64,000 bases of DNA, taken from positions 1 to 64,000 of the forward strand of contig NZ_FUHW01000023.1 in the NCBI RefSeq assembly GCF_900163545.1, in the 5' to 3' direction. Source of the stretch: Arthrobacter rhombi (lineage in GTDB: Bacteria > Actinomycetota > Actinomycetes > Actinomycetales > Micrococcaceae). This document shows positions 1,348 through 32,032 of this stretch, piece after piece; position 1 is the stretch's first letter, and the number at the start of each line of letters is the position of its first letter. The position numbers and the translations under genes were made by a program. The notes beneath the pieces were generated by a model. The model ran no database searches. It had not been told where the DNA came from and saw nothing but the letters and a program-made list of their open reading frames with translations.

Positions 1348-1414
1348 GCTCCCACGCGCAGCTAGCGCCTCGTGACCCCGGGCGGTTTCCGAGGCACCAG
1401 GACGGAACGCTGAA

Positions 1415-1458
1415 GGGCCGGGCACCAGTATCCACAGACTGGTACCCGGCCCTTTTGT
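1415..1458 (+). terminator. Rho-independent terminator of the DUF349 gene
   Basis: Two 15-base arms, GGGCCGGGCACCAGT and ACTGGTACCCGGCCC, pair with one C-A mismatch around an 8-base loop and are followed by TTTTGTT. It lies 68 bases after the DUF349 stop and just before the next + strand start at 1488. Confidence 0.85.
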
Positions 1459-1487
1459 TCTCGGTAGCCCTTTGCCACAGTTGGTTC

Positions 1488-2087
1488 ATGATCGATCCCA
1501 CCGAGGCAACCGACGGCACCGTGCTCCTGCAACCGGGCAGACCCTTCGCCACACCAGAGCTGATGGTGCTCTCGCATGAGGGGGTTATCCGTCAGGTACT
1601 GCCCGGAACCTTCGTCTGCTCCGTCGTCGAGGACACCCCGGGGTTACGCGCCACCGCGGTGGCCACCCTCGCCGGCCCACGGCTCCTGGAGGTCGCCGTC
1701 ATCGGGCGGCTGACTGCGGCCTGGGTCCATGGTTTCCATCCGGCACCGGACACCCTTGAACTGCTGGTCTCCAGGTTCCACCGCATCCCGTTGCACCGTG
1801 GTCAGGTGCGGCTGGCGCTCCATGAGTGCGTGCTCGAGCCGACGGAGGTCGATGAACGTTTCAGGATGCCGGTGACAACACCGATCCGCACGGGACTGGA
1901 TCTTGCCTTCCATAGTGAACCGGCAGTGGCGCGCCGGGTCATCAGCCGCCTGATCGCTGCGCGCAGCGGTGCCTGCACTCGGGATGAACTGTTGGCCGCC
2001 ATCGAAGCCACGGGGCGCCGACCTGGCAAACGTGCGGCCTGGGATCTGGTCCAGGGGTTGCCGTCGCTGGCTGCCGTGCCCCGATGA
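1488..2087 (+). CDS. Possible AbiEi-type antitoxin-like protein (199 aa)
   Basis: I chose the ATG at 1488, which follows the terminator directly; the frame is open further upstream but only through non-coding-looking sequence. The protein has a middle region with the pattern 'ATAVATLAGPRLLEVAVIGRLTAAWVHG' style alternation (quoted loosely) and a later TPIRTGLDLAF segment. This resembles the C-terminal domain of the AbiEi-type proteins common in actinobacteria (tAAWlhG ... TtP.RTalDLA). No toxin gene is adjacent: the neighbour is rel on the opposite strand, ending 26 bases away. It is therefore more likely an orphan member than half of a toxin-antitoxin pair. The family assignment is tentative. 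Confidence 0.6.
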   Translation: MIDPTEATDGTVLLQPGRPFATPELMVLSHEGVIRQVLPGTFVCSVVEDTPGLRATAVATLAGPRLLEVAVIGRLTAAWVHGFHPAPDTLELLVSRFHRIPLHRGQVRLALHECVLEPTEVDERFRMPVTTPIRTGLDLAFHSEPAVARRVISRLIAARSGACTRDELLAAIEATGRRPGKRAAWDLVQGLPSLAAVPR

Positions 2088-2112
2088 GGTTCCGGGCACC
2101 CACCGTCCCCGC

Positions 2113-4437
2113 CTATTTGCGGCGTCGCCCTTCGGAGGTCCGGTAGACGTCGTAGACACCATCGATCCTTCGGACCGCGTTCAAGACGTGATTCAGATAT
2201 TTGGGATCACCCATCTCGAAGGAGAACCTGGAGGTCGCTACCCGGTCTTTGCCGGTCACCACACTGGCCGAGAGAATGTTGACCTGATTATCCGAGAGCA
2301 CCTTGGTGACATCGGAGAGCAACGATTTTCGGTCCAGCGCCTCAGCTTGGATCTCCACGAGGAACACGCTGGATTGTGTGGGAGCCCACCTGACGTCGAC
2401 CAGCCGTTCGGCCTGATCGCCCAGCGCCTGCAGATTCGCGCAGTCAGCGCGGTGCACCGAAATCCCCGAACCCCGGGTGACGAAACCACGGATGGCATCC
2501 GGTGGCACCGGTGTGCAGCAGCGAGCCAGTTTGGCCATCACATCCCCTGCCCCGGCCACCACCACCCCGGCATCATGGGTCTGTCGTGAGGTGCCAGGGG
2601 TGAACGAGGGGGTCTCGTCGAAGTCGGCTTCATGCGGGTGGGTCGGCCCCACCAGGGCCTGCAGATGTTCGATGACGTTCTGTGCCGAGGTGTGCCCGTC
2701 ACCTACCGCCGCGTACATGGCGGCGATATCGGAATGCCGCAACTGCTGCGCGACGGCGGTGAGCGTATCGTGCGTCATCAGTTTTTGCAGCGGCAAGTTA
2801 TTCTTGCGCAGCGCCTTCGTGAGCTGGTCCTTGCCCTTATCGATGGCCTCTTCGCGGCGTTCCTTGGTGAACCATTGGCGGATCTTGTTCCGTGCCCGCG
2901 GACTCTTGACGAACCCCTGCCAGTCCTGGCTGGGGCCGGCGCCTTCGGCCTTGGAGGTGAAGACCTCCACCCAGTCCCCGTGGTGAAGTTCGCTGTTCAG
3001 GGGGACGAGTTTGCCGTTGACCCGGGCGCCGATGGTGCGGTGGCCGACCTCGGTGTGGACGGCGTAGGCGAAGTCCACGGGAGTGGACCCGGCAGGAAGG
3101 GCCATCACCTCGCCCTTGGGGGTGAAGACGAAGACCTCTGCCGCGTTGATCTCGAAGCGCAACGAGTCCAAGAACTCGCTGGGGTCACGGGTTTCCTGCT
3201 GCCAGTCCATGACACTGCGGAGCCAGTTGAGGTCCTGGCCGTCCTGGCCGACGGCCTTGGTTTTGGCGGCACCCGACTTGTACTTCCAGTGGGCGGCGAT
3301 CCCGTATTCGGCCCGCCGGTGCATGTCGTGGGTGCGGATCTGGATCTCGATGGGTTTTCCATCGGGCCCCACGACGGTGGTGTGCAGCGACTGATACATA
3401 TTGTATTTCGGCATCGCAATGTAGTCCTTGAAACGCCCGGGCAGGGGGTTCCAGCGGGCATGCAGGGTACCCAAGGTTGCATAGCATTCGCGCACGGAAT
3501 CGACCAGAACGCGGACACCCATCAGATCGTGGATGTCGTCGAACTCCTTCCCGCGCACCACCATCTTCTGGTAAATCGAATAGTAGTGTTTGGGCCGGCC
3601 GGTAATGGTCGCCCGGATGCGGGCCTGATGCAGGTCCTCGCCGATCAGCGTCCGGACGGTTGAGAGGTACTTTTCCCGTTCCGGGGTCCTGTCCCCCACC
3701 ATGCGGACAATTTCCTCATAGACCTTCGGATGCAAGGCCGCGAAGGAGAGGTCCTCAAGTTCCCATTTGATCGTGTTCATGCCCAGCCGGTGAGCCAGGG
3801 GAGCGAAGATTTCCAGGGTTTCGCGGGCCTTCTTGGCACTGGACTCGGGTGAGACGTAGCGCCAGGTTCTGGCGTTATGCAGTCGGTCGGCGAGTTTGAT
3901 CAGCAGGACCCGAATGTCACGGGCCATGGCAATGACCATTTTGCGAACTGTTTCGGCTTGGGCTGCGTCACCGAACTGGACCTTGTCCAGCTTGGTGACC
4001 CCATCGACGAGCATGGCTACCTCGTCACCGAATTCGCGGGCCAGGTCCTCCAATGAATAGTCGGTATCTTCGACCGTGTCATGGAGCAATGCCGCCGCGA
4101 GCGTGCTTCCGGTCATGCCCATTTCGGCCAGAATGGTGGCGACGGCCACCGGATGGGTGATGTAGGGATCGCCGCTTTTGCGTTTCTGATTCTCATGGCA
4201 GCGTTCGGCCACGGTGAAGGCACGAGTGATCAGATCCAGATCCTCGCGCGGGCTATTCGCCCTCACGGTACGTAGCAAGGGCTCCAGGATGGGCGGCTGT
4301 CCCGAGGTACTGCGACCGGCGAAACGGGCCAGCCGTGACATGGTCCCTCCGCGGCGGCGGGCTGCCGGCGGCGGTGTCGCCGGCTCCGCCGGCTGATCGG
4401 CCGCGTCGTTCGCTGCCCGGGCTGTGGGTTCCGCCAT
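2113..4437 (-). CDS. relA: Bifunctional (p)ppGpp synthetase/hydrolase (Rel/RSH)
   Basis: This 774-residue protein has the full long-RSH order: an HD hydrolase domain ([10 protein letters not shown] near 117-126), the RelA/SpoT synthetase domain ([10 protein letters not shown] and the [18 protein letters not shown] region, roughly 290-410), a TGS domain (about 445-510) and a C-terminal ACT domain (about 690-770). Retention of the HD motif argues for a bifunctional enzyme that both makes and degrades (p)ppGpp in the stringent response. The ATG at 4437 has GAGAGGA upstream. It is transcribed after secDF in the same direction, with a 156-base gap holding a hairpin. Confidence 0.96.
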
Positions 4438-4491
4438 GGCAGGTCCTCTCGCTGTACCCGGTTCGCACTACGCTTCCGGGGCCTGGGTGAC

Positions 4492-4529
4492 GGGGAGGCC
4501 ACGAGCAGCTAACCGCCCGTGGCCCCTCC
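4492..4529 (-). terminator. Hairpin between secF and rel
   Basis: GGGGAGGCCACG (4492-4503) and CGTGGCCCCTCC (4518-4529) pair over 10 of 12 positions with a 14-base loop. There is no U-tract, so it may be a weak terminator or attenuator for the secDF transcript. Confidence 0.35.
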
Positions 4530-4593
4530 GTTCCTCAAGGTTATAGCACCCGCGGGCCTCTGCCGTCACTTTGGCGTCCCGGGGGATGACGAG

Positions 4594-5601
4594 TCAGCCG
4601 GCGGTGGCCGCCTGGGAATGCAGGTCTGCCCCGCGTTTGGCCAAAACCTTCTTATTGTGTTCGCGCACATCGGCCTCACCGTGACGCAGGACAGCGTAGA
4701 GCGGTGCCTGGATGAAGACGGTGCACAAGGTGCCCACGATGATGCCGACGAACAGTGCCAACGAGAGGTCCTTCAACGTGCCGGCCCCCAAGAGGTAGGA
4801 ACCGATGAACAGGATCGAGCCCACCGGGAGCACGGCGACGACCGAGGTGTTGATCGACCTGACCAGTGTCTGGTTCACCGCGAGGTTGATGTGCTCAATA
4901 TAGGTCCGATCCGTTTGTTCGAACGTATGCGCGGTGTTTTCCCGGATCTTGTCGAAGACCACCACGGTGTCATAGAGCGAATAACTCAGGATCGTCAGGA
5001 AGCCGATGATCGCACTGGGGGTGACTTCGAAGCCCGAGAGGGCGTAGATCCCGGCGGTGATGATCACCACCGTGAACAACCCGATGATTGCTGCCAGCGA
5101 CATCTTCCAGGTGCGGAAGTACACCGCCATCAACAGGGCTACCAGAACGACGAACGCGATCAGGCCCAACAGTGCCTGCTTGGACACGTCGGCGCCCCAG
5201 GAAGGCCCCACGAAGGAGGAGGTCACCTCGGAGTCGGAGACCCCATAGGCATCCGCCAAGGCGTCACCGGCCTTGAGGGTCTGCTCGTTGGTCAGTCGCT
5301 CGGTCTGGACCCGCATGGTGTTGGCGGCGATGTTCGTGACGGTCGGCGCGTGGTCGGGGGCGATGGCCTTGATGGCCTCTTCGCCGACCTTGGGGTCGGT
5401 GTGTTTAACTTGCGAGATCGTGAATTCGGATCCACCGCTGAACTCGATGCCCAGGTTGAATCCGCCCTTGGCGATCGGAAGGATGATCGAGGCCAGGACC
5501 AGCACGGCAGCAATGGAAAACCAGAGTTTGCGTTTGGCGATGAACGGGTAGGACTTCTTACCCGTATAGAGCTCGTTGCCCCATGTTGCGAGATTAGGCA
5601 T
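4594..5601 (-). CDS. secF: Protein translocase subunit SecF
   Basis: SecF is part of the SecDF complex that uses the proton gradient to pull exported proteins through SecYEG. The 335-residue protein has a first membrane segment near 25-45, a periplasmic-type P1 domain and a block of five C-terminal membrane segments, including the conserved ATIIGFLTILSYSLYDTVV-like stretch (here AIIGFLTILSYSLYDTVVV). The start is set by the ATG at 5601, which overlaps the secD stop by 8 bases. A longer frame exists upstream, but only inside secD. The C-terminus is short and basic. Confidence 0.96.
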   Translation of the reverse strand: MPNLATWGNELYTGKKSYPFIAKRKLWFSIAAVLVLASIILPIAKGGFNLGIEFSGGSEFTISQVKHTDPKVGEEAIKAIAPDHAPTVTNIAANTMRVQTERLTNEQTLKAGDALADAYGVSDSEVTSSFVGPSWGADVSKQALLGLIAFVVLVALLMAVYFRTWKMSLAAIIGLFTVVIITAGIYALSGFEVTPSAIIGFLTILSYSLYDTVVVFDKIRENTAHTFEQTDRTYIEHINLAVNQTLVRSINTSVVAVLPVGSILFIGSYLLGAGTLKDLSLALFVGIIVGTLCTVFIQAPLYAVLRHGEADVREHNKKVLAKRGADLHSQAATAG

Positions 5602-25150: not shown

Positions 25151-28100
25151 TCATGATCCGACGTCGAACTCCGGCCAGTCCTCGGGAACCTCACCGGGCA
25201 GCCGGTGGTCCAGGCCTTCGTCCTTCATCCGGGTAGCCAACGACAAGGCGCCCTCGCTGCCGGGCTTCTTGGTCGCGGACAGTGACTGCTTCGCACTGAC
25301 ACGGTTCGGGTCGCTGAGGTGTCCCGGCCCCGGGAGGGAGGCCTGGTCAGCAAGGTCCCACGCCTGGAGGGCCTGCAGGCTGATGCCGCGGGGGCCCGTC
25401 CGCCGGGTGATCCCGTGGACCAGCAAAAGCCGGGTGGAAAATAGCAGCGGCCCGGAGTTCTGCTGGGCTTCGTGGAAGAAGGTGCAGTCCACGCAACCGG
25501 TTCCGTCGTCCAGGGAGATGAACACGACTCGTCGGCCACCACGCATGGGTGGCGTCTGCGTTGCAACCCGCACCCCGGCCACCAGAACCTCGGTTCCGTT
25601 GCGTAATCTCCGCAGATCCTCGGCATGGGTCGCCCCCAGTTTCGCCAATACCGGGGCATGCGAGGACATCAAATGGCCGCTGACGTCCACCGACATCAGA
25701 TCCAATTCGGTCCGGACGGTTTCCTCCATGCTCTGTTCGACGTGTCCCACGGCCAATCCGCCCAGTTCCACGTCGCTCATGGGCAAGGGCAGCTGCCCGG
25801 CAATGGGGCGGTGCCGTGGGGGCAAGGCCTTGGCGGGCCTGGCTGCCAGATGGGCCATCAGGTCCGCACGGTTGCCGCGCCCAGCCACCTTTTGCAGGGA
25901 ATCGAAGGCCCCTAGGGCGGCAAAAGTCCGCAACGAGGAACGATTCAGCCCCGACCGGTCGCGCACATCAGCCAGCGAGTCGTAGGGCTTTCCGGCAACG
26001 ACCCGCTTCACCTCGTTTCCCGAGACCCCGTGGATCCCGCTCAGGGACAGCCGGATGCCTAACCGTCCGGCTGGCATCGTTCCCGGTGCCCGGTAGACGG
26101 GTGGAACCGTGGCCGGGGGCAGCAATCCCTTCAAACGTTCGACCCGGTAGGAGGCGTCAGAGCAGTTGATATCCAGTGGCAGGATGGGGATGCCCATCCG
26201 CCGAGCCTCCGCTACCAGCAAACGTTTGGGATACATTCCGGGATCGTGTTCCCAGATACCGGCTAGGAACGCCTCGGGGTGGTGGGCCTTCAGCCAGGCC
26301 GACTGGTAAGTCGGCACGGCGAAAGCTGCCCCATGGGCCTTGCAGAAGCCGAAAGAGCCGAAGGCCTTCAATGTCGCCCAGACCTCGTCGATCACGGCCA
26401 GCGGATAGCCCCGCTCCAGAGCTCTGGAACGGTAGAGTTCCTCCACCCGTGGTTCGGCCTGCTCGTTGCCCAGCAGCCGCCGATACACATCTGCCTTGGC
26501 CAATCCGCACCCGGTCATCACGTCGAAGATCCGTAGTACTTGTTCGTGAAAGACCGTGACCCCATGCGTCTCGGCCAGTGCTGGTTTAAGGTCAGGGTGA
26601 GGATAGTTTTCAACCGCAAAACCATGCCGATTTTCCAGATACGGTTTGACCATATTTGATTGCATGGGCCCGGGCCGGAACAACGAGATATCGATGATGA
26701 TGTCGTTGAATTCGCGTGGTGCCAGTTTGCCGATCAGTTCACGCTGCCCGGGAGATTCGATCTGGAAGCAGCCCAGCGTGTCGGTGGTGCGGATGAGTTC
26801 GAAGGTCGGTTCATCATCCAGCGGGACCCGCTGCAGGTCGATGGTCCCGTCGGTGTCCAGATACTCCGGAAGCCCCCCGTCAGATGTTTTCGAATGGGCG
26901 CCGGCGCGGGCAACCGCATCCCCGTCCCCATGGATCCGGACGACCTCGGAGACCGCATAGGCCATCGCCGATTGCATGCGCACCCCCAGCACATCCAGTT
27001 TGAGCATGCCCATGGGGTCCATATCGTGCTTATCGAATTGGCTCATCGCCAACCCGAGTCCGCTGGGCTGGACCGGGGTCCGGTCCAGCAGGGTGTTATC
27101 CCCCAGGATCACCCCGCACGGGTGCATGGAGATGTGGCGGGGCAGCCGGTCCAGCCGCTCGGTCAAATCCACCAGCAGGTCCAGCTGCTTCTCGGCCCCC
27201 ATCCGTTCGGCAAAGGGGCGCAGCTCCGGCTTCTCGTCCAGGGCCTCGCGGAAGTTGCTGGCCGAGAAACGCCACAGCTGTTTGGCGATGACATCCAGGT
27301 CCCCGTCTCCCATGCCCAGCGCCTGCCCCGCGTCCCGGACCGCGCCACGGGCCCGGTACCCGTTCTGCATGCTCATCAGGGTGACCCGCTCTGAACCAAA
27401 CCGTTTGAAGATGTGCTCATAGACCCGATGTCGTTCGGCGGATTCGACGTCGATGTCGATATCGGGAAGGGTCGTCCGGTCCCGCGAGAGGAAGCGTTCG
27501 AAGAGCAGGTCGTGGGCCAACGGGTTCACATGGCTAATGCCCAGGAGGAAGTTCACCACGGAAGAAGCGCCGGATCCCCGGGCGGCATTGCGCACGCCCA
27601 GGGTAGTGATCATCGAGCTGACCTCGGCCACGGTGAGGAAGTAGGTGCCAAAGCCCAGGTCGGAGATGGTTTCCAGTTCCATCGCGAGGCGATCGCGCAG
27701 CGCACGGGAACCGGCGTCCTGAGGGATCAGGCGGGTAATGCCTGCTTCGCAGCGTGCCGCCAGTTCCGCATCGGGGTGACCGCTGATACCAATCACGCTG
27801 GCTTCGGGGACCACGGGGATTCCCCAGCCGGCGTCGTCCACCGGGTCCATCCGTGCCCAGTCGGCCATGGCCGAGGTGTTGCCCAGCAGTTCCCCAGCGG
27901 CTCTCCCCTCCCCCGCGTCCCGCGCAATTTCCCGGGCCAGGGCGTTCATCCGTCCGGGGCTTTTGAGCCATCCCTGCCCGTTTGGTTGCAGATCGCCAAG
28001 AGTTTCCAACGAGCTCAAGGCACGGGCAGAATCCAGCACGTCGGCAGTAGCCGCACCATCGGGGTCTGCATAGCGCACGGCGTTGGTAAGTACTGCCGGA

Positions 28101-28777
28101 ACATGAAGGGCCTGGGCGACGCGGAGCATCCGGATGGAATGCGCTGTGCTGAGCCGCTCCCCCGGGGTGTTCAGGTGGGTGACCAGCTCGAGGTGCACCA
28201 CATCTCTACCCACCGCCTGCAGCCATCCGGCCAGCGCGGTCCTGGCGCGTGGGAGTTCACGGCGCAGGGCCGCCTGACCGACATCGGAATCCGGTCCCAG
28301 CAGCACCTTCAGTACCGTACCGGCCTCCGGGTCGGTGGCACACGACGCTAACTGCGCACGAGTCACCCCCACGGGTTTGCCTCCGGTAGCACCCCGGTGC
28401 GCCGCAGTCCCCTCATGGGCTAGGGAGACCAGCCGGCACAGAGCCCGGTAGCCGGCCCCGTCGCAATGTCCTTTAGCCAGTACGATGACACGCCCTTGGA
28501 GCTGTAGTCCCGGGCGCCCCCGGGCAGCATGCGCCGGAGGATGCCGGGCGTTATCAGCGCCGGGGCCCAGCACCGCTAGGTTCACCCCGAGGATCGGATC
28601 CAGTCCGGTCTCCCGGCACGCCTTGAGGTGTTTGACGGCGCCGTAAAGGCCATTGCGTTCGGTGCTGGCCAGGGCGTCAGCCCCCTCGGCAGCGGCCTTC
28701 AGGGCGAGGTCTTGGGGCCAGGAAACCCCGTAATGTGCGCTGAACGCGGAGGCCACGTTCAAATGGGTGAAACTCAT
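25151..28777 (-). CDS. dnaE2: Error-prone DNA polymerase DnaE2
   Basis: This 1208-residue C-family polymerase starts with a PHP domain (SFTHLNVASAFSAHYG, about 1-250). It carries the catalytic Asp triad in LPDIDIDVES, the fingers/palm segments (LFRPGPMQS, LGCFQIESPGQRELI, FGFCKAHGAAFA), then helix-hairpin-helix and OB domains. Translesion synthesis by DnaE2 causes SOS mutagenesis in actinobacteria. The start at 28777 overlaps the DUF6504 stop (ATGA). The usual partner imuB is absent from the cassette. Confidence 0.95.
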   Translation of the reverse strand: MSFTHLNVASAFSAHYGVSWPQDLALKAAAEGADALASTERNGLYGAVKHLKACRETGLDPILGVNLAVLGPGADNARHPPAHAARGRPGLQLQGRVIVLAKGHCDGAGYRALCRLVSLAHEGTAAHRGATGGKPVGVTRAQLASCATDPEAGTVLKVLLGPDSDVGQAALRRELPRARTALAGWLQAVGRDVVHLELVTHLNTPGERLSTAHSIRMLRVAQALHVPAVLTNAVRYADPDGAATADVLDSARALSSLETLGDLQPNGQGWLKSPGRMNALAREIARDAGEGRAAGELLGNTSAMADWARMDPVDDAGWGIPVVPEASVIGISGHPDAELAARCEAGITRLIPQDAGSRALRDRLAMELETISDLGFGTYFLTVAEVSSMITTLGVRNAARGSGASSVVNFLLGISHVNPLAHDLLFERFLSRDRTTLPDIDIDVESAERHRVYEHIFKRFGSERVTLMSMQNGYRARGAVRDAGQALGMGDGDLDVIAKQLWRFSASNFREALDEKPELRPFAERMGAEKQLDLLVDLTERLDRLPRHISMHPCGVILGDNTLLDRTPVQPSGLGLAMSQFDKHDMDPMGMLKLDVLGVRMQSAMAYAVSEVVRIHGDGDAVARAGAHSKTSDGGLPEYLDTDGTIDLQRVPLDDEPTFELIRTTDTLGCFQIESPGQRELIGKLAPREFNDIIIDISLFRPGPMQSNMVKPYLENRHGFAVENYPHPDLKPALAETHGVTVFHEQVLRIFDVMTGCGLAKADVYRRLLGNEQAEPRVEELYRSRALERGYPLAVIDEVWATLKAFGSFGFCKAHGAAFAVPTYQSAWLKAHHPEAFLAGIWEHDPGMYPKRLLVAEARRMGIPILPLDINCSDASYRVERLKGLLPPATVPPVYRAPGTMPAGRLGIRLSLSGIHGVSGNEVKRVVAGKPYDSLADVRDRSGLNRSSLRTFAALGAFDSLQKVAGRGNRADLMAHLAARPAKALPPRHRPIAGQLPLPMSDVELGGLAVGHVEQSMEETVRTELDLMSVDVSGHLMSSHAPVLAKLGATHAEDLRRLRNGTEVLVAGVRVATQTPPMRGGRRVVFISLDDGTGCVDCTFFHEAQQNSGPLLFSTRLLLVHGITRRTGPRGISLQALQAWDLADQASLPGPGHLSDPNRVSAKQSLSATKKPGSEGALSLATRMKDEGLDHRLPGEVPEDWPEFDVGS

Positions 28778-29085
28778 GCACTCTCCAGCAAGGCATCGTG
28801 GATCCGGATGAGTCGCCAGCGCCCGCTCTCCACATCGCGGGAGACCTCGAAGGTGAGCAGCGGCCCCTTGCCGGCGAGCCTGACCTGTAGTTGCCATATC
28901 TCATGGTCGACAAGTCCCGGACCGCGGCCGCGTTCTGCGCGGATCTCCTCGGCCCACCAGCGGCGGCGCTCAAACCAGCGCACGGGATCGGCGGCAACAC
29001 GGTATTCCCGTCCCTGCCACCGCATCCGCAAAGGTAAGCCTGCGGTGCTGCATTCCACGTCGACTGACTGGGTGAAAAGCCCCAT
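28774..29085 (-). CDS. DUF6504 family protein
   Basis: The 103-residue protein has short Trp-rich strands (LRMRWQGREYRV, DPVRWFERRRWW, HEIWQLQVRL). It matches the small gene that lies between imuB and dnaE2 in actinobacterial mutagenesis cassettes. The ATG at 29085 has GGAGG six bases upstream; an earlier in-frame ATG lacks a site. It is coupled to dnaE2 by ATGA. Its role is unknown, but its fixed position suggests a link to translesion synthesis. Confidence 0.85.
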   Translation of the reverse strand: MGLFTQSVDVECSTAGLPLRMRWQGREYRVAADPVRWFERRRWWAEEIRAERGRGPGLVDHEIWQLQVRLAGKGPLLTFEVSRDVESGRWRLIRIHDALLESA

Positions 29086-29180
29086 CTGATACCTCCAATT
29101 CGCCCCGGACGACGGCATAGGTCTCGGGGCCCTAAATCATGGAAGGGGCCGCAAAACTGCCTGTGCGCGACGATCATCCC

Positions 29181-29208
29181 ATTCTATTCGAATCTTTGTT
29201 CTAAGCAA
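29181..29208 (-). promoter_or_regulatory. SOS promoter of DUF6504-dnaE2 with LexA-like box
   Basis: On the minus strand TTGCTT (29208-29203) and TAGAAT (29186-29181) form -35 and -10 hexamers with a 16-base spacer. That spacer holds TAGAACAAAGATTCGA (29203-29188), which matches 10 of 12 fixed positions of the actinobacterial LexA palindrome TCGAAC-N4-GTTCGA. The position between the hexamers is ideal for repression. Confidence 0.7.
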
Positions 29209-29262
29209 GATTAGACTAGAAAGCATGTACGACACTTTGGGTTTCTGGATAGGATCTGGACC

Positions 29263-29661
29263 ATGACATGGCCGGTGCGACACCTCACCCAGACCATTGA
29301 CGCTGGAATCGACCGGGTCATCGCCGTTGCCGCTGACCCTCTGCAGCTCCCTCATTGGGCCGCGGGTCTGAGCTCCGGCATTCGCAACGAAGAGGGACGA
29401 TGGATTACCGATTCCCCGATGGGCGCAGTCGAGGTGAGGTTCGTCGGCCCGATCAAGTCGGGCGTCCTCGATCATGACGTGGTCCTGCCGGACGGGACCG
29501 TCGTGCGCAATCCCCTCCGTGTACTGAGCAACGATCAGGGCAGCGAGGTCGTGTTCACCCTCTTCAAGAAAACGGGAATGAGTGACGCCGAGTTCGAACA
29601 GGATGCCAACGATGCTCGGGAGGATCTCGCCCGGTTGAAGGCGCTGATCGAGGGCGGCTGA
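29263..29661 (+). CDS. SRPBCC family protein (132 aa)
   Basis: The protein has the layout of a short START-like fold: TIDAGIDRVIAVAADPLQLPHWAAGL at the N-terminus (quoted in part), alternating strands, and a C-terminal helix (AREDLARLKALIEGG). A KTGMSDAEFEQD segment precedes the helix. The function is unknown. It is divergent from the DUF6504-dnaE2 unit, and the shared 180-base gap carries the SOS promoter on the other strand. Confidence 0.75.
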   Translation: MTWPVRHLTQTIDAGIDRVIAVAADPLQLPHWAAGLSSGIRNEEGRWITDSPMGAVEVRFVGPIKSGVLDHDVVLPDGTVVRNPLRVLSNDQGSEVVFTLFKKTGMSDAEFEQDANDAREDLARLKALIEGG

Positions 29662-31267: not shown

Positions 31268-32032
31268 TTACTCCGCGAAAAGGTTCTGAACCGGCTCGAT
31301 GAGCTCGGGACCGTTGTTCCGCACGTTGCCCACGGCGGAGCCCACTTCCCGGAGAGACCAGCCTCCGGCAACCTCATAGGCTTCGGATCTGACTTGCTCG
31401 ACCAACGGGGCAGCTTCCCGGTCGCCGGGGTTCAACCATTCGGACATCGTCTCCCGATCCAAGGGGATGGGCAACCGATCGTGCAGTCCATGCAGTTCGT
31501 CGAGCACCGTGGATTCGCCCGTCTCGTCGGGTGAGGCCATCGTGAGGATGCTGCAGCTGAGCAGCCAACGTTCTGGGTCGTCTTCCGTCTTTGAGGGATC
31601 TTTCCACCACTCGTAGATGCCAGCGAAGAAGATCAGCGAGCCGCCTTCCGGGTGCACGAAATACGGACGTTTGGAGGCGGTCTTGCCGGCCCCGGATTTC
31701 TTCCACTCGTAGTAGCCCTCAACGGGGATGGCGCACCGGCGGGCCTTGATGGCAGAACGAAAGGTGGGTTTCTCCAGAACGGTTTCACTGCGGGCGTTGA
31801 AAGCCCTCACCCCCACGGAAGGGTCCTTGGCCCAGATAGGTACCAAACCCCATGTGGCCACGTGCACCTGACGGACGACTTCGTCGTCGACCAACCGCTC
31901 CAACACAATCGGAACATCGCTGGTCGGGGCGACGTTCCACGATTTACGCAGTTCCAGCGCATCGTCGGCTTCCGCCTCGGCTTCGGCTACCAGGTCACCA
32001 ATGGCCCGGGCCATTACGTATCTCCCACACAT
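31268..32032 (-). CDS. SOS response-associated peptidase (SRAP/HMCES/YedK)
   Basis: The 254-residue protein begins MCGRYV, so after Met removal Cys2 becomes the N-terminal nucleophile that crosslinks to abasic sites in single-stranded DNA. It also has WNVAPTSDVPIV, FNARSETV, RCAIPVEGYYEW (catalytic Glu) and LHDRLPIPL (catalytic His), all in family order. The required MC start fixes the start codon. It is divergent from the mycoredoxin gene, with only about 17 bases between starts. Confidence 0.94.
   Translation of the reverse strand: MCGRYVMARAIGDLVAEAEAEADDALELRKSWNVAPTSDVPIVLERLVDDEVVRQVHVATWGLVPIWAKDPSVGVRAFNARSETVLEKPTFRSAIKARRCAIPVEGYYEWKKSGAGKTASKRPYFVHPEGGSLIFFAGIYEWWKDPSKTEDDPERWLLSCSILTMASPDETGESTVLDELHGLHDRLPIPLDRETMSEWLNPGDREAAPLVEQVRSEAYEVAGGWSLREVGSAVGNVRNNGPELIEPVQNLFAE

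Follow-up and report, generated by a model that had tools for sequence, protein, structure and literature searches.

A two-gene operon of DUF6504 and dnaE2 in Arthrobacter rhombi

The stretch of Arthrobacter rhombi DNA analysed here (64,000 nucleotides, the window) carries on its minus strand an operon in which a DUF6504 gene comes first and dnaE2 second, the stop codon of the one overlapping the start codon of the other in an ATGA (Table 1). That DUF6504 leads the operon had been stated in an earlier note on this DNA, and the assignment is borne out by this overlap together with a PF20114 match of 27.6 bits (cut-off 24.2). A longer open reading frame of 114 aa begins at 29118, yet translation more likely starts at the ATG at 29085, because GGAGG lies six bases before it and because it gives the N-terminus MGxF that is typical of the family (MGxF-like in 34 of 39 DUF6504 family proteins). 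In the 114-aa reading, QMGLF resembles a clamp motif; this candidate was rejected, since translation probably begins at the M of MGLF.

Table 1. Positions of the operon, its upstream elements, its neighbours and the DUF6504 and DnaE2B-like loci of genus g19.
Feature	Position	Strand	Remark
dnaE2, DnaE2B type	25151..28777	-	1208 aa
DUF6504 gene, assigned as stand-alone ImuB-C	28774..29085	-	103 aa from ATG at 29085
GGAGG, ribosome-binding site of DUF6504 gene	29092..29096	-	read from sequence
TAGAAT, -10-like hexamer	29181..29186	-	by eye; scan finds no promoter at 9/12
LexA-like box TCGAATCTTTGTTCTA	29188..29203	.	10/12; same 16-mer upstream of umuD
TTGCTT, -35-like hexamer	29203..29208	-	by eye, weak
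Divergent ORF	29263..29661	+	132 aa
SRAP gene	31268..32032	-	2.2 kb upstream of operon
g19 DUF6504 and DnaE2B-like frame	L230:2049-5281	+
g19 DUF6504 and DnaE2B-like frame	L231:2169-5434	-
g19 DUF6504 and DnaE2B-like frame	L264 about 1465-4607	-
g19 DUF6504 and DnaE2B-like frame	L265 about 1361-3565	-	reduced further

Among named genomes, the nearest relatives of the window DnaE2 are found in a Micrococcaceae MAG (92%) and then in Paeniglutamicibacter quisquiliarum (73%). In 75 of 79 named loci, no more than 285 nt separate DUF6504 from the dnaE2 match downstream of it; L145, which has dnaE2 at the contig edge and offers no DUF6504 to assess, is not among the 79. The two genes are 1.7 kb apart in four of the 79 (two Paeniglutamicibacter and two strains named Arthrobacter), and in three of these the gap holds a frame that by eye resembles a pyridine nucleotide-disulfide oxidoreductase (L144:4372-5736, L147:4381-5745 and L148:4382-5737, all on the plus strand; also in L029), while no such intact frame was seen in L146. 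A gene for an SOS response associated peptidase (SRAP, PF02586) is located upstream of the operon, and, of 80 named dnaE2 loci, 60 have SRAP kin within the flanking sequence examined. The conjugative plasmid pYA7-1a of Arthrobacter sp. YA7-1 has a DUF6504-dnaE2 pair of its own with an adjoining SRAP gene (L109:3707-7996), and the module can therefore move.

The LexA-like box is conserved across the family

The upstream box matches TCGAACNNNNGTTCGA at 10 of 12 positions and lies in the promoter region, fitting to the same extent the 16-bp tCGAAC-N4-GNNCGa kind of LexA box (PMC9380542). Since the 64-kb window contains ten matches of at least 10/12, such a box is not rare by itself, and its significance comes from conservation across the family and not from a single match. 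Forty family regions were scanned, namely the window and 39 loci in which DUF6504 precedes dnaE2; L047, where a second DUF6504 of G052 lacks an adjoining dnaE2, was not counted. Of these 40, 34 have a box of at least 10/12 within 330 nt upstream of the operon. In the controls, dinucleotide shuffles averaged 0.57 such regions and never exceeded 2, the reversed pattern gave 1 of 40, and other spacings gave 0 or 1. The box was likewise present in 74 of the 79 named loci, a set that overlaps the 40 regions, and in 5 of another 7 loci, the exceptions being L235 and L236, where no box stands close upstream. In the A. rhombi genome the identical 16-mer precedes umuD (L002:1964-2404, minus strand, with umuC adjoining), spanning bases 29 to 14 ahead of the umuD start, and an 11/12 LexA-like box lies upstream of recA. 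Conservation of the box in the family, together with its exact copy at umuD, makes LexA control of the operon a well-supported prediction.

The earlier note had also described the box as nested between promoter hexamers. The box itself held, but the hexamers are weak: TTGCTT-16-TAGAAT was read by eye and matches at 8/12, and a promoter scan of the window upstream region returned no hexamer pair at 9/12. Across the family regions, TA...T occurs one base after the box in 19 of 39 (shuffle mean 0.46) and TA..CT before it in 27 of 39 (shuffle mean 1.4), both patterns having been picked after inspection of the regions. The divergent ORF, which has no Pfam or NCBIfam match, begins 60 bases past the box, and as the box is palindromic it could also serve this gene.

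No imuB or imuA found in the A. rhombi genome

As the earlier note observed, imuB was not found in the cassette; nor was it found elsewhere in the genome, a 53-contig assembly rated 100% complete, when this was searched with PF00817 and an actinobacterial ImuB profile. The genome search for imuA', imuB and other Y-family polymerases that the note had proposed thus returned two PF00817 genes only, DinB and a UmuC beside UmuD, while DinB was the sole match, at 59 bits, to the profile built from 8 actinobacterial ImuBs. PF00817 should have shown an imuB, because all 8 of these ImuBs score above its cut-off (32-47 bits against 23.2). An ImuA profile, run without a positive control alongside, gave no match in the genome, and RecA is the only PF00154 match over the cut-off. 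With no imuB or imuA found in the genome, the window DnaE2, if working, works without a whole ImuB. Of the two possibilities left by the earlier note, an imuB elsewhere or a DnaE2 that does without it, the first gained no support from these searches, and the second stands for a working DnaE2.

The same ImuB profile run over 100 family genomes set apart 18 true ImuBs, which score 441-612 bits over nearly their full length; the remaining matches reach at most 110 bits, and none of them spans the C-terminal columns except one 19-bit scrap. The 18 genomes span 7 genera, and genus g7 includes both the ImuB and the DnaE2B state.

DUF6504 as the C-terminal module of ImuB

From its sequence relationships we conclude that DUF6504 is the C-terminal module of ImuB (ImuB-C) as a stand-alone protein. 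PF20114 recognises the C-terminal end, some 75 residues long, in 6 of 7 plasmid-borne alphaproteobacterial ImuBs (E 4.9e-7 to 4.4e-4; two over the cut-off), and one full plasmid ImuB, encoded between imuA and dnaE2, bears the annotation 'DUF6504 family protein'. The model matched neither the seventh, L142, nor the Thermomicrobium protein L112, nor any of 8 actinobacterial ImuBs. By hhalign, DUF6504 gave a weak match at the expected place to proteobacterial ImuB (21.8%, E 0.001) and none to actinobacterial ImuB (probability 0.15%); a DUF6504 profile made in this work reached one ImuB, with E 0.018-0.032. PF20114 also misses divergent members of its own family, as G012, G018, G022, G043, G061 and G066 are unmatched and yet have DUF6504 before dnaE2.

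Structure prediction points the same way. The AlphaFold2 model of DUF6504 is all beta with 7 strands (pLDDT 77.6), in line with the ImuB-C beta-barrel described in PMC12926913, while PDB sequence and fold searches gave no significant match. Residue W101 is invariant in 32 and in 35 aligned sequences (L028 and L063 were left out of the DUF6504 alignments A1 and A4, their boxes and DnaE2s being counted, and the DUF6504 of L123 out of alignment A3). The ImuB-C superfamily is characterised by beta structure and a conserved C-terminal tryptophan (PMC3765255), and the window DUF6504 has both, with its seven predicted strands and C-terminal W101. Named in 2013, the domain is found by itself and in company with DnaE2, whether or not an inactive DinB is also present (PMC3765255). 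As a small beta protein coded beside dnaE2, the window protein resembles the stand-alone superfamily members (PMC3765255, PMC6511836), from which it differs, as far as is known, by sequence divergence only.

The window DnaE2 belongs to a separate lineage

The window DnaE2 keeps LPDIDI (residue 437) and KLDVLG (593), and the two aspartates of the former plus the one of the latter we take to be the catalytic residues, after E. coli DnaE. The PHP domain starts with HLN, where HxH is usual, and from this we infer that it is degenerate. The gene is under purifying selection, with a pN/pS of 0.15 against G002.

Several features place this polymerase, as judged by its sequence, in a lineage of its own, DnaE2B, outside the DnaE2A clade. 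A tree separates the DnaE2A and the DUF6504-linked sets with SH-aLRT values of 99 and 100; the latter value falls to 94 when a Streptomyces plasmid DnaE is left out, and only this split was used, the DnaE1 root being a long branch. 'DnaE2A' denotes a score over the NF004225 cut-off, and 9 of the 13 such proteins have an imuB-like gene in the fetched stretch. NF004225 was rejected as a discriminator for the window protein, because this protein (578 bits) and the DnaE1 of the same genome (606) both fall under the cut-off of 939. The C-terminal SRDF motif is absent from the window DnaE2, and it is present in 12 of 13 DnaE2A versus 0 of 48 DUF6504-linked DnaE2s; SRDF[H/R] has been described as a DnaE2 trait of the ImuA-ImuB-DnaE2 mutasome (PMC3919608).

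The DUF6504-linked polymerases have instead a clamp-type motif, QLPLPM at residue 995 in the window protein. A hexamer Q[LQMG]x[LF]x[LFMI], a pattern widened after inspection of the sequences, occurs at one aligned place in 47 of 48 DUF6504-linked DnaE2s versus 0 of 13 DnaE2A (mean in shuffled segments 0.69), and the narrower Q[LM]xLP in 23 of 48 versus 0 of 13. A QLPLx motif has been noted for some Actinobacteria (PMC3919608). In the mycobacterial system, clamp contact is made by the QLPLWG of ImuB (PMC10421592), and QxxLWG is found in 5 of 8 actinobacterial ImuBs.

True ImuB and intact DnaE2B were not found together in 72 Micrococcaceae genomes

We then asked how the two systems are distributed over 72 family genomes (G000-G071), in which 'no DnaE2B' means that the best match among those listed is at the DnaE1 or DnaE2A level. 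Thirteen have a true ImuB, and an intact DnaE2B was seen in none of these, 8 having nothing at the DnaE2B level and 5 a broken or dead copy. Among the 59 without ImuB, DnaE2B is present in 55; the four with neither are three genomes of one genus and one 82% complete assembly. For 47 of the 55 DnaE2Bs the frame or a match over the full length was inspected, and each of these has DUF6504 upstream; the other 8 are counted from the genome search only. True ImuB and DnaE2B-ImuB-C thus look like alternatives in the family, a pattern whose 72 rows are not independent since the ImuB genomes cluster in 7 genera. The DUF6504-DnaE2B arrangement is the common state of Micrococcaceae (55/72) and not a loss in the A. 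rhombi strain.

Three ImuB cassettes of the family were read, and all have the order imuA-imuB-dnaE2A with a box of at least 10/12 before imuA. In two other ImuB-bearing genomes, G054 (L228:2056-3841, minus strand) and G038 (L229:1450-3734, minus strand), DnaE2B is broken and there is no DUF6504 match; in L229 an 11/12 box still stands before the broken gene.

A genus that keeps ImuB-C beside a dead DnaE2B

In genus g19, all four genomes (G020, G047, G325 and G070) have a true ImuB and have kept DUF6504 with a box of 10-12/12. In three of them DUF6504 is followed by an unbroken frame of 944-978 aa that is DnaE2B kin. None of the three aspartates remains in this frame, and nothing in it can be aligned to residues ~614-817, a stretch that includes the finger domain (644-774); in the fourth genome the DnaE2B-like frame is more reduced (Table 1). 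The DUF6504 proteins are 98% identical among G020, G047 and G325, and 58% in G070. Between G020 and G047, pN/pS is 0.03 for DUF6504 (104 codons) and 0.08 for ImuB, as against 0.47 for the dead polymerase (67% identical). Because g19 keeps a LexA-boxed and conserved ImuB-C beside a DnaE2B that lacks the catalytic aspartates and the finger domain, ImuB-C may have a role apart from synthesis by DnaE2B. The literature on ImuB-C, DUF6504, and DnaE2 with Arthrobacter contains, in the portions accessible to us, nothing recognisable as an ImuB-C beside a dead DnaE2B.

Discussion

In our judgement, the operon of imuB-C (DUF6504) and dnaE2B with its LexA-type box probably encodes a DnaE2B-[ImuB-C] type polymerase that is error-prone and induced in the SOS response. 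DNA damage would lead to cleavage of LexA, upon which ImuB-C and DnaE2B would both be made. DnaE2B would reach the sliding clamp by its own QLxLxL motif, the task that falls to the QLPLWG of ImuB in the mycobacterial mutasome, and a polymerase with its own clamp tether could therefore do without a Y-family hub. ImuB-C, which has been modelled on the PHP domain of DnaE2 (PMC12926913), might dock on the degenerate PHP domain of DnaE2B and so license or position the polymerase at lesions, where DinB or UmuC may join in trans. A bolder form of this proposal has a two-component SOS mutasome without any Y-family subunit, in which DnaE2B attaches to the clamp unaided and its sole accessory, ImuB-C, has in addition a job separable from DnaE2B catalysis; we put this forward only tentatively.

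The main rival is that DnaE2B and ImuB-C work with the DinB of the genome in trans, as a scattered version of the DnaE2B-[ImuB-C]-PolY-RecA type, the operon having once stood beside dinB and this linkage having been lost in the family. Support comes from 46 genomes of other families of the order. Sixteen of these have a PF20114 match. Fifteen of the 16 also have a Y-family gene on that contig, no more than about 8 kb away; the locus of the remaining one (G109) is split over contigs. All 7 other-family loci read have the order DUF6504, dnaE2 and, 1.2-2.8 kb on, dinB, and the products of the linked genes are 43-49% (DnaE2) and 47-54% (DinB) identical to their A. rhombi counterparts. A linked DnaE2B-[ImuB-C]-PolY-RecA type is reported in Tessaracoccus (PMC12926913), and a Y-family gene is present in all 118 genomes searched. 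Against it, the A. rhombi dinB lies on contig C43, apart from the operon, and is not preceded by a LexA-like box (best 8/12), Pfam found no DUF4113 (RecA-NT) in the three DinBs scanned, and the published group that includes the window type is linked to ImuB-C only, as described in PMC12926913. On balance we hold this rival to be the less likely of the two. UmuC was rejected as a general partner of DnaE2B, since 22 of the 55 DnaE2B genomes show a single Y-family gene (E 0.001).

It is also conceivable that the operon encodes a low-use or decaying polymerase whose SOS role has been taken by the UmuDC that shares its box. The genome does have umuDC with the identical box, and 5 relatives with ImuB have a broken or dead DnaE2B. 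The full-length window frame with its catalytic residues kept, the purifying selection against G002 and the conservation of box and operon across the family make this reading improbable. Finally, that a canonical imuA-imuB-dnaE2 cassette lost its imuB, with DUF6504 an ordinary spacer gene of such cassettes, would agree with the failure to find imuB and imuA in the genome and with the true ImuBs of 18 of 100 family genomes, but is very improbable given that DUF6504 is itself an ImuB-C relative, that the tree does not place the window DnaE2 on its DnaE2A side and this protein is without SRDF, that the three canonical family cassettes read carry DnaE2A, and that PF20114 matches in 1 of 31 class genomes with DnaE2A.

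The earlier note had favoured this last view, holding that the usual place of DUF6504 in actinobacteria is between imuB and dnaE2. The 31 class genomes whose DnaE2 scores above the NF004225 cut-off contradict this as far as PF20114 detects the family, the one match being in G123. The claimed loss fails as well: DUF6504 is assigned as ImuB-C, the DnaE2B lineage is reported from genomes without ImuA or ImuB (PMC12926913), and the arrangement is that of 55 of 72 family genomes. A true oddity had been seen, from a wrong premise.

In kind, the DUF6504-dnaE2 system of the window has already been described. The 2026 survey that reports the DnaE2B lineage names Arthrobacter alpinus as an example (PMC12926913), and by its description the A. 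alpinus type DnaE2B-[ImuB-C] has what the window has, an actinobacterial DnaE2 whose sole link is a stand-alone ImuB-C, and no ImuA or ImuB in the genome. The survey also allows for coexistence of Pol V with DnaE2 systems. The words LexA and DUF6504 do not occur in its main text; the present analysis adds the box, the exclusion of true ImuB within the family and the genus with a dead DnaE2B. The D. deserti-type system shares with the window an SOS-controlled DnaE2, a stand-alone ImuB-C and the lack of ImuA, but its operon has a linked Y-family imuY and lexA, neither of which is linked here, and UV mutagenesis in D. deserti needs DnaE2, ImuY and the chromosomal RecA. With the canonical ImuA-ImuB-DnaE2 mutasome, as set out in PMC10421592, the window has in common a DnaE2-kin polymerase, an ImuB-C module and a LexA-type box; it differs in having no ImuA, no Y-family hub and no SRDF, and in that the polymerase, instead of ImuB, bears the clamp-type motif.

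ImuB-C is hard to study alone while it is part of the ImuB hub. Here it is a separate protein of ~100 residues encoded beside a polymerase with catalytic residues and a clamp-type motif, so that soil Arthrobacter strains could show what ImuB-C does for DnaE2. The family as a whole offers a natural comparison, as true ImuB and intact DnaE2B were found together in none of the 72 genomes examined.
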